Source of the DNA: Hyaloraphidium curvatum
Taxonomy: Eukaryota > Monoblepharomycota > Hyaloraphidiomycetes > Hyaloraphidiales > Hyaloraphidiaceae
Assembly (NCBI GenBank): GCA_025558095.1
Contig: JAIVFI010000014.1
Location: 558,001-622,000, forward strand
Reading direction: 5' to 3'
Length of the DNA: 64,000 nucleotides
Shown: positions 19,370-22,693 of the stretch, piece by piece
How the letters are laid out: every line of letters starts with the position of its first letter
How positions within the stretch are numbered: position 1 is the stretch's first letter
The notes under the pieces: model-generated
What the model saw: the letters and a program-made list of their open reading frames with translations, nothing else
Database searches by the model: none
Told to the model about the DNA's origin: nothing
Position numbers and translations under genes: made by a program

Positions 19370-19936
19370 CTAGAGGCGAAGCTTCATGAAGAGGGCCACT
19401 TCCTGCTTGTCAAAATCGTCGTTGCTGTAGAAGGACATGTCGAACTTCTCGATGGTAAACCCCATCGCCCGATACGCCCTAATTGCAGGCACATTTCGGT
19501 TGGCCGTCTCGACCTCGATTACGCGGAACGACCTCTTGCGGGCCTCGTCGGCCAGCGTGGCCATCATGAGCTTCCCGACGCCCCTGCCGCGGTGCCCCTC
19601 GGCGACGTGGAATTCCCAGAGATTTACGGTGCCGTTCCAGGGCGTCGTCCCGGCGATGACCAGCCCAATCGTCGCTTCCCCGTCCTTCGCCAGGAAGCAG
19701 AGCCCGCCGGGCCGCACCAGAGACCCGTAGAAGTTGACGAGCTCGCTGCGGTGTTCCCATCGCTTCACGAAGGGTTCGGGCAGCTTCTCCAGTTCGAAGC
19801 GGAACGTCGTAAGCGCGTCCGCCTCTTCCCTGGTGAGCCTGAGCAGTTCATTCGACACATAGCCCACAGAAAGCGAAAGGAAGATGTCTCTGGAGAAGGA
19901 TTCCCAAGGGACGACAGTGATTTCGCCCGATGCCAT
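19370..19936 (-). CDS. GNAT family N-acetyltransferase
   Basis: A single-exon, 188-residue protein. The acetyl-CoA binding motif A is clear: EGHRGRGVGKLMMATLADEA after a beta strand TVNLWEFHVA. It is followed by the motif B region RVIEVETANRNVPAIRAYRAMGF, where the Asn and Tyr are typical GNAT active-site-proximal residues. The central beta strand LCFLAKDGEATIGLVIAGT matches the GNAT core. The substrate is unknown; length and the IRAYRAMGF ending resemble RimI/small-molecule acetyltransferases. It is divergent from the Zn2Cys6 gene, with only about 134 bases between starts, so the two may share a promoter region. Confidence 0.87.
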   Translation of the reverse strand: MASGEITVVPWESFSRDIFLSLSVGYVSNELLRLTREEADALTTFRFELEKLPEPFVKRWEHRSELVNFYGSLVRPGGLCFLAKDGEATIGLVIAGTTPWNGTVNLWEFHVAEGHRGRGVGKLMMATLADEARKRSFRVIEVETANRNVPAIRAYRAMGFTIEKFDMSFYSNDDFDKQEVALFMKLRL

Positions 19937-20070
19937 GCGGTTCGCGGTTGGTGTCGGAAAAAAAGTCGTTCCGATCCGACCGGCCCAGCTCTTTGGGTGG
20001 CGGGCTGGCACGGACTCCGTGTCCCGCATCGGAGAGCCCCACGAGCGGCCGCCCTCGGACCATCGTCGCG

Positions 20071-22693
20071 ATGTCCGACTACGCGGACGACGTGGCCACC
20101 AACGGCCATTACAACGCGTCGCCGGAGAAGAACGGCGAGAAGCGGCGCCGCGTGACGCAAGGTGGGCTTCGCGGCGTCCCCCGCCGGCCCCGCTGACTCC
20201 CGCGGCCATCCCGCCCCGCCTGCCCGCGCGGCCGACGCAGCATGTGAGCATTGTTTGTTTGCTCCGTGCTGCCGCGGTTCTGACAGTCCCCGCCCCCGGC
20301 CGCCCCGCCGTCCCCCGCCGCAGGCGACCTGTGCTCGGAGCAGCGCGCAAAGTGTGACTCGATGAAGCCGTGCGCGCGCTGCGAGAAGCGCGGCACCGAG
20401 TGCACCTATCTGCGGCAGCCGAAGCGCCGCGGCCCGCCGAAGGGCACCGCAAACAGCATGCGCGAGCGGCTCTCGCGGCTGGAGCAGATTTACGGCGCCG
20501 TCAAGGCTGAGGAGATGCTGATGATGGCCGGCGTCGGCGTCCAGCTGTCGCAGCCGTCGCATATGATGAACGGCGGCCGCGCCCCGTACCGCGGCGTGTC
20601 CGTGGCGGCGTCCGCCGCGGACTCCGTGTCGGGCGACGAGGACGGGATCCGCAGCCCGGACAACTACGGCTCGCCGGCGCCGTACGTTCGTGACATCAAG
20701 CCCTCCGCTGCGGCCCTTGCGGCGGCGAGCGGCGATCCCGCCAGCCGCATGTCGATCGGGTCGCTGCTGGCCCAGCACAGCGCCAACGCCAACGGCCTGG
20801 TCACCTCGCCGCCGGCAAAGCCCAGCTCCTCCGCAACGCCCCCGCTCTTCCTCATGACCTCGGACAGCTCGCTGTCACTCATGCTGCCGCCCGAGGTCTT
20901 TGCCTCGGTCATGGACACCTACTTCACCTCCATCTTCCCCACGATCCCCATCATCCACCGCTACTCGCTCGAGCGCAACCCGCACTTTTACCCGCCCGCC
21001 CTCCTCTTTGCCGTCATGGCCGTTTCCGTGCGGTTCAACAACCACGCCTTTTTCGACACCCCGGCGGTCAGGGAGCAGTGGGCCGAGTGCCTGTTCCAGC
21101 AGGCCCACAAGCTGCTGCAGCCCCTGATCCTGGATCCCAAGCGCGTGCACTACCACCACGTCATCGCGCTGCTGCACGTGGTCAACTACTTCTTCCACAT
21201 GAAGGTTCGCGGCCGTCGTGCAGGCCCTGGCGAACCCCTCTGATCTGGATTCGCCAGACGGCGCTCCTTATTTCGACGCGCGGAACGAGCCTCGTTTTCG
21301 TGCTGCTTCGCGAACTGAGGCTGGATGAGGAGACGATCGCGCAGTGCCCCTTGCCTCGCTGGGTCCAGTACGAGGGTGAGATCACTTGCTTGCTTGCCAG
21401 AGTGCTGCTCACCTCGCGCCCTCAGAGTTCCGCAGGCTTCGCTGGAACATGTACTTTCATGACCGCGTGCTGACCTACGGCGCCGGCGCCGGCATCCGGC
21501 CCTTCGCTCTCGCTCGCAGCTCGCTCATCAACATGCGGTTCCCCGTGGTAGGTTGCTCGCCCGTCGTGCCTGGCCTGTGCCTGACGGCCCGACAGAACGA
21601 CAACCTCTGGCTCAACGGCGACACCACGGAGCCGGTCGCCACGTCGGCACCGATCACGTTGTCCATCTTCGAGCGCGACCTCTCGTCCTACGCCATCTTC
21701 ATGAGCGAGCTGGCACCCCTGTCGCGGATGATCATCCTTTTCTCTATTTTTGTGGGTGCTTCTCCTCCCTTGGCCCGCCAACGTTGTGCTGATTCTTTTT
21801 CCGGCGAACAGGAAAAGATCGTCTGCAACCTCAACGGTCTTCCCGGAGCCGAGTCCAAGGAGACCATCGCGCAGATGCTCGCGACGTGGTACGAGTGCCA
21901 GCCGCCGGAGGACAAGTTGCTCTCGTCGACGTCGGAGCCGTCGTACGGTCTGATCTACCTCATGATCGTTTACGTGGGTTGCCAGCAACACGGAGCAAAA
22001 CTCTTGTCACTGACGACTTGCCCATGATCAGCACACAATGGTGGTCATCATCCACTCGCCTTCCAACCTCGACGACATGTGGGCGGACGAATCGTGGCTC
22101 CTCTCGCAGGATTTCCTGGTCGCCGCCGAGCACGCGGGCCTGTGCACCAACTACCTCGAGGCCAACCCGCGCGCGCTCCAGTTCGCGCCGTACCTGGTCA
22201 AGATCTTCGTGCAGCGGGTTTTCTGCATGCACCTCATGCTGGCCCAGAAGCTGGCGCACGAGCAGACCTTCCAGGAGGACCTGAAGCGCAAGGTGAAGCT
22301 GCACATCCAGGCACTCGCCGTCATGGGGCGGACCGACAAGGTGGGCACGATCCTTTGGCCGGGGTGGAATGAAGCACCGTGCTGATGGGGACCGCAGATG
22401 TCGGCGATCACGGCCAAGCTGCTCGCGGTCACGGCCGAGGGCTCCCTGGGTCAGCTGCAGGGATCCGTCGGCGAGGTGTTCGCTGCCGCCGGGTTCACGC
22501 CGGAGGAGATGGCCATCATGGCCGACATCAACAAGGACTGGATTTCCGAGGTGGGGCGCGTCGCGCTCGATACGTGGCGGCACGCTGACGTTCGCTGCAG
22601 CGCGCGGGATTCCTGTCGCAAATGAGGTCGTTGATGCAGCGCAGCGTTGGGGTCAAGCCTCAGGAGTCCCCGCAGCCGGATCCTGAGCTGTGA
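20071..22693 (+). CDS. Zn2Cys6 fungal-specific transcription factor, with a 3-base exon
   Basis: Ten phase-consistent exons give 695 residues: 20071-20161, 20241-20243, 20324-21204, 21258-21375, 21426-21547, 21596-21751, 21812-21973, 22032-22340, 22398-22550, 22601-22693. The zinc cluster has the spacing CX2CX6CX5CX2CX6C (CDLCSEQRAKC..., CARCEKRGTEC) followed by a basic linker (RQPKRRGPPKG) and a short coiled coil (MRERLSRLEQIYG). The first cysteine appears only if the 3-base exon CAT is spliced in between two GT-AG introns; skipping it gives Gly instead. A long Ser/Ala-rich region leads to the fungal-specific TF domain (VMDTYFTSIFPTIPIIHR; LRWNMYFHDRVLTY). It is a nuclear regulator; targets are unknown, though the cluster sequence is reminiscent of the XlnR/Clr group of carbohydrate regulators. 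Confidence 0.88.

Follow-up and report, generated by a model that had tools for sequence, protein, structure and literature searches.

Evidence for a three-base exon completing the first zinc-ligand codon of a Zn2Cys6 gene in Hyaloraphidium curvatum

A Zn2Cys6 gene and its deposited model

The gene described here lies on the plus strand of a 64,000-nt window of the genome of Hyaloraphidium curvatum, a species placed in Monoblepharomycota. A protein search identified it as DFJ74DRAFT_86059 (protein P0001), deposited as a hypothetical protein of 742 aa. Our ten-exon model, which starts at ATG 20071 (Table 1), encodes 695 aa without an internal stop and matches P0001 with 100% identity over the full query length. 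The deposited start is ATG 19930, 47 codons upstream in the same exon; the resulting 47-residue N-terminal extension (19930–20070, plus strand) may be 5′ UTR, with ATG 20071 as the true start. A divergent open reading frame of 188 aa on the minus strand (19370–19936), labeled by eye as a GNAT-like acetyltransferase, starts at 19936 and shares 7 bases with the zinc-cluster gene at its deposited start.

Table 1 Features of the zinc-cluster gene, in window coordinates
Feature	Position	Strand	Description
Exon 1	20071..20161	+	91 nt from the conservative ATG; last G is the first base of the Ala codon
Intron 1	20162..20240	+	79 nt, GTGGGC...CGCAG; one CTGAC, from intron position 32; without internal AG
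Microexon CAT	20241..20243	+	3 nt; residues present in P0001
Intron 2	20244..20323	+	80 nt, GTGAGC...CGCAG; one CTGAC, from intron position 37
Exon 3	20324..21204	+	Cys2–Cys6 of the zinc cluster, KRRGPPKG linker, start of Fungal_trans
Exons 4–10	21258..22693	+	Remainder of the protein to the stop; 100% identity to P0001
Exons 4–6	21258–21375, 21426–21547, 21596–21751	+	Ten-exon model
Exons 7–10	21812–21973, 22032–22340, 22398–22550, 22601–22693	+	Ten-exon model

Gal4-type zinc clusters follow the spacing C-x2-C-x6-C-x5-12-C-x2-C-x6-9-C, and the cluster obtained when CAT is included, CDLCSEQRAKCDSMKPCARCEKRGTEC, fits it. The full protein scores 36.5 bits against PF00172 (Zn_clus; cut-off 21), aligned from profile position 1, and 32.7 bits against PF04082 (Fungal_trans; cut-off 23). 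Its best match among solved structures is GAL4 (7uik, E = 4.4e-09), and this alignment runs through the rebuilt cysteine. Judged by these sequence matches, the protein is a transcription factor of the Gal4-type Zn2Cys6 plus Fungal_trans class, and it would be expected to bind DNA. In GAL4, the first cysteine is one of the two that bridge both zinc ions, and its loss should therefore disrupt the cluster.

Junctions and splice signals around CAT

The initial annotation had exon 1 ending in a lone G at 20161, a CAT exon at 20241–20243 and a further exon reading GC-GAC-CTG-TGC from 20324, and these coordinates hold to the base. CAT is preceded by an AG (20239–20240) and followed by a GTGAGC donor from 20244, and the second intron ends in an AG at 20322–20323. 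The three bases complete an alanine codon (G|CA) and provide the first base, T, of the first-cysteine codon (T|GC), such that the included form (junction CAAGCATGCGACC) reads VTQ-A-C-D-L-C in frame (RRRVTQACDLCSEQRAKC). Joining 20161 directly to 20324 (junction CAAGGCGACC) also preserves the frame and gives VTQ-G-D-L-C (RRRVTQGDLCSEQRAKC), in agreement with the earlier claim that direct splicing yields Gly-Asp-Leu-Cys and loses the first ligand. P0001 reads VTQACDLCSEQ, and the residue supplied only by CAT is therefore already part of the deposited model. The presence of a 3-nt exon in that model hints at transcript support, although the model could be homology- or prediction-based instead of transcript-based.

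We enumerated every GT/GC–AG join from ATG 20071 to 20400, with 20 nt as the minimum intron length. The 15 in-frame one-intron joins include none that places a cysteine before DLCSEQRAKC, and a single one of the 625 in-frame two-intron joins yields VTQACDLC, namely 20162–20240 / CAT / 20244–20323. Moving the start to 19933, the codon that follows the deposited ATG, returned the same counts (15 and 625). Longer middle exons were covered as well, and VTQACDLC arose from the CAT solution alone. Dozens of other in-frame two-intron joins place some cysteine before DLC, none of them matching P0001; the reasons for rejecting them were extra residues, loss of the basic stretch, or dependence on a weak or GC donor. 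Among them, a 12-nt middle exon gives ACEHCDLC and an 82-nt exon, built from the AG at 20161 and an upstream GC or GT donor, removes the RRRVTQ stretch, neither being the P0001 sequence. If either of the introns flanking CAT is retained, the reading frame closes prematurely; among these outcomes, a full-length protein results solely when CAT is included or cleanly skipped.

Splice signals in the two flanking introns resemble those elsewhere in the gene. The branch-site pattern CTRAY occurs exactly once in eight of the nine introns, against a window average of 0.14 per 80 nt taken as the expectation. Its start lies at positions 32 and 37 in the introns flanking CAT; of the remaining seven introns, one lacks the pattern and six have it from positions 34–42. 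A further intron of the gene likewise carries donor GTGGGC and acceptor CGCAG, and donor GTGAGC resembles the GTGAGA of a third. Within intron 2, AG dinucleotides end at position 5 and, directly after CTGAC, at position 43; the latter is probably too near the branch site for use. The flanking introns differ in their branch-to-acceptor distances (44 and 40 nt, versus 11–19 nt in the other introns). They had been described as being of ordinary size: the lengths of 79 and 80 nt are correct, but the other seven introns of the gene span only 48–60 nt. Both lengths fall within the 55–188 nt of the motif-like one-intron solutions found at paralogous loci.

How often a CAT-like site would arise by chance was estimated by shuffling the 162-nt gap 20,000 times with its dinucleotides preserved and six bases fixed at each end, using patterns that were chosen after the site had been seen. 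The loose pattern AG|CNT|GT appeared in 2.2% of shuffles, YAG|CNT|GTRNG in 0.105% and YAG|CNT|GTRRG, to which the site conforms, in 0.02%; when introns of 45 nt or more were required on both sides, these values were 1.07%, 0.04% and 0.02%, respectively. Across both strands of the window, with the site itself included, the latter two patterns occur four times and twice, respectively. Counting the site, this corresponds to ~0.5% and ~0.25% per 162 nt, above the shuffle rates.

One alternative is that no microexon exists: a single 162-nt intron would leave a degenerate five-cysteine cluster, and AG-CAT-GT would have arisen by chance. The direct join is in frame, the loose pattern appears in 1–2% of shuffled gaps, and the skipped form (first 148 residues) passes Pfam, scoring 33.7 bits against the PF00172 cut-off of 21 in an alignment from profile position 6. 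Thus the two forms differ by only 2.8 bits, a small gap. However, the deposited protein has the cysteine, CAT is surrounded by full splice signals with a fitting donor-to-branch spacing, and a first cysteine is recovered at every paralogous locus tested (see below), which together make this alternative very improbable. A stwintron, in which one intron is nested in a splice signal of a larger one and all 162 bases leave in two steps, is another possibility; two short introns do lie side by side, and the literature excerpts on this class describe it in many fungi. Yet the splice signals of both introns here are intact, neither being broken up by the other intron, and the deposited protein requires CAT to be kept in the mRNA. 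We regard a stwintron as the remotest of the readings considered.

Zinc-cluster paralogs and relatives

The H. curvatum genome contains 96 PF00172 matches, including the DFJ74DRAFT_86059 gene. As a control set, we took all 16 other matches starting at profile position 4 or later and tested 13 of them; L045 and L046 lacked the cluster pattern and L036 repeats L034/L035. Because L034 and L035 share one solution, the 13 tested loci represent 12 distinct sites. In all 13 (13/13), where the match is broken near Cys1–Cys2, the first cysteine was recovered with one intron, and two introns three bases apart were needed only in DFJ74DRAFT_86059 among the loci tested. In this genome, then, a zinc cluster broken close to Cys1 is nothing unusual.

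The paralogous intron breaks sit at several positions and in several phases, and several paralogs read R.RVT.AC. After a one-intron join, L042 gives KERRRVTRACDSC (RRRVTRACDSC), L033 gives RRARVSRACDSC, L047 reads GKRIGQACDNC and L044 reads HRRVGQACQEC. At L042 (minus strand, around 1507), the putative single intron of 188 nt would split the first-cysteine codon itself (TG|C). Some loci were less clear-cut: L037 and L038 have three one-intron solutions each, with a 238-nt intron at L038 tying in donor score with a motif-like 68-nt intron, and the solutions at L037 and L043 are less like the family motif than those at other loci. Formal microexon solutions of 9 and 11 nt also exist at L044 and L047, respectively. 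The two tests were unequally permissive, as any GT donor and introns of 39–250 nt sufficed in the single-intron test, whereas the microexon test required better donors with exons of 1–15 nt.

Uninterrupted clusters provide a second comparison, with 35 found in L002–L031 (L019, the DFJ74DRAFT_86059 gene, was left out). The initial annotation had called A-C-D the exact family consensus, which proved to be a real tendency in this genome: by hand count over these 35 clusters, alanine precedes Cys1 in 22 and aspartate follows it in 13. One uninterrupted paralog, L027 (KPRERITQACDHC...VKKRGPPKG, with RITQACDHC), carries the motif and the downstream linker as in DFJ74DRAFT_86059 and was used as a length marker free of introns. 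In 1 of the 35 (L023), an AG directly precedes the first-cysteine region where intron 1 would lie; its reading frame, however, stays open further upstream and calls for no intron. Overall, the claim that CAT rebuilds the first cysteine is strongly backed by the deposited protein, the junction enumeration, the branch-site spacing and the paralog consensus.

Several arrangements among the 96 matches were recorded alongside this comparison. By hand count, nine same-strand pairs of Zn_clus matches lie less than 300 nt apart and share their open-frame length, on contigs C35, C8, C26, C4 and C16 (for example, L005, L015, L021, L022, L026 and L030), which suggests proteins with two tandem Zn2Cys6 clusters. 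Three equal-scoring matches on contig C40 (at 80236, 85427 and 90618) are spaced by exactly 5,191 nt, suggesting a 5.2-kb tandem repeat that carries a zinc-cluster gene. Lastly, the zinc-cluster stretches at C10:43906, C51:377 and C51:12084 are identical over the 96 bases compared, reflecting either a recent duplication or an assembly duplicate (C51 is 21.8 kb long).

Protein searches returned the gene itself, one metagenome relative (P0002, 60% identical, from a contig of 1,889 nt) and the distant P0003 (47% identity over 9% of the query). These searches scored 7994 candidates sharing most words, which gave P0003, and 123 candidates. P0002 reads ...GNLPGDLCSEQ and looks like an unspliced translation. 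If the glycine before DLC reflects an intron running into the exon at T|GY, then the position of the intron-2 acceptor would be shared. Using back-translation patterns, no placement of AG|CNT|GTRNG was compatible with the 45 P0002 residues upstream of GDLC. Two placements of the loose AG|CNT|GT did fit this stretch (introns of 104 and 35 nt), and so did a further two that dispense with intron 1 (introns of 35 and 31 nt). Judging from this translated stretch, either intron 2 of P0002 may exceed it or the microexon may be absent, and the comparison lends no support to CAT being conserved.

Probable constitutive inclusion and known ultra-short exons

We propose that CAT is a constitutive 3-nt coding exon that contributes the first base of the first zinc-ligand codon, a reading to which we assign a probability of about 0.92. 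The 3-base exon completing Cys1 is itself almost certainly real, and constitutive inclusion is the likeliest and simplest account of it. Short fungal introns are thought to be recognised as units. Under such intron definition, each of the two introns would be marked out through the donor, branch site and acceptor that it carries, and splicing would probably remove them in succession. Once the first had been removed, CAT would lie within a normal-sized exon, so that no spliceosome would have to recognise an exon of 3 nt. The spliced product would read RRRVTQ-A-C-D-L-C.

It is also conceivable, if unlikely, that inclusion is condition-dependent and switches between a DNA-binding ACDLC form and a GDLC form without the first ligand, the toggle of DNA binding put forward in the initial annotation. 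Skipping would stay in frame and remove a 162-nt GT–AG intron, and introns of comparable size (153, 183 and 188 nt) are predicted at paralogous loci. There is also a documented microexon switch in a Zn2Cys6 gene: excerpts of the report on Xlr2 of Trichoderma virens describe a glucose-dependent microexon of 20 nt. However, the sole deposited protein found is the included form, and according to the same excerpts no Xlr2 reads joined exons 1 and 3, so this precedent is not one of simple skipping. A frame-neutral 3-nt switch outside Dikarya, in which skipping would replace Ala-Cys with Gly and give a full-length form unable to bind DNA, seems slightly less likely still. Were such a switch real, it would be a smaller counterpart of Xlr2, and regulated inclusion would offer a minimal test of how intron definition copes with an exon that cannot accommodate the two splice-site complexes simultaneously.

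At 3 nt, CAT lies far below the 30-nt limit for coding microexons and adds one more case to the few ultra-short exons on record, its included form being already implicit in the deposited model. The literature searched returned no paper on the CAT exon of DFJ74DRAFT_86059. We consider it a clear-cut example of how a codon for a metal ligand can be put together across an exon of three bases (G | CAT | GC).

Closest in context is Xlr2, where the excerpted RNA-seq and functional data describe a glucose-regulated 20-nt microexon (PMC11121469). As with CAT, the exon is tiny and forms part of the Zn2Cys6-coding region of a fungal transcription-factor gene, and without it the Xlr2 protein lacks the DNA-binding domain (PMC11121469). 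The Xlr2 exon encodes two cysteines (PCRRCE) and is missing from the JGI model, in contrast to the 3 nt and one cysteine of CAT, which is in the deposited model. Within this protein family, the CeGAL paper as excerpted attributes a missed short Zn2C6 exon in I1CF81 to a gene-prediction error (PMC10141177). That exon is likewise a very short zinc-cluster exon whose misprediction leaves five of six cysteines but, unlike CAT, it codes for two amino acids. The part of the report on the Pleurotus Zn2Cys6 family that was consulted lists many exons below 50 bp in one group and mentions none as small as 3 nt (PMC7295025).

Exons of similar or smaller size have been described in other genes. In Fusarium CYP621A, the excerpt reports a 1-nt exon in 20 orthologs, confirmed by reads in two species (PMC12940212). 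Like CAT, it is an ultra-small fungal coding exon whose presence was deduced from motif conservation, a gap of excessive length and a relative without introns as length marker; it differs in its length (1 versus 3 nt) and in belonging to a P450. Exon 2 of gpd, the glyceraldehyde-3-phosphate dehydrogenase gene of Ganoderma lucidum, is a fungal exon of 3 bp like CAT, and the passage describing it gives no sign of a metal-ligand codon (PMC8379801). Exons of exactly 3 nt are also described, in the excerpt concerned, for mouse Ncam and Drosophila TnT, the latter being skipped tissue-specifically (PMC8042270); unlike CAT, the TnT exon belongs to an animal gene and its skipping removes one lysine and no metal ligand. 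In plants, 1-nt exons are known from the literature excerpts. Together with the excerpted accounts of Xlr2 and I1CF81 (PMC11121469, PMC10141177), CAT is a further warning that fungal Zn2Cys6 models can lose cysteines via ultra-short exons.
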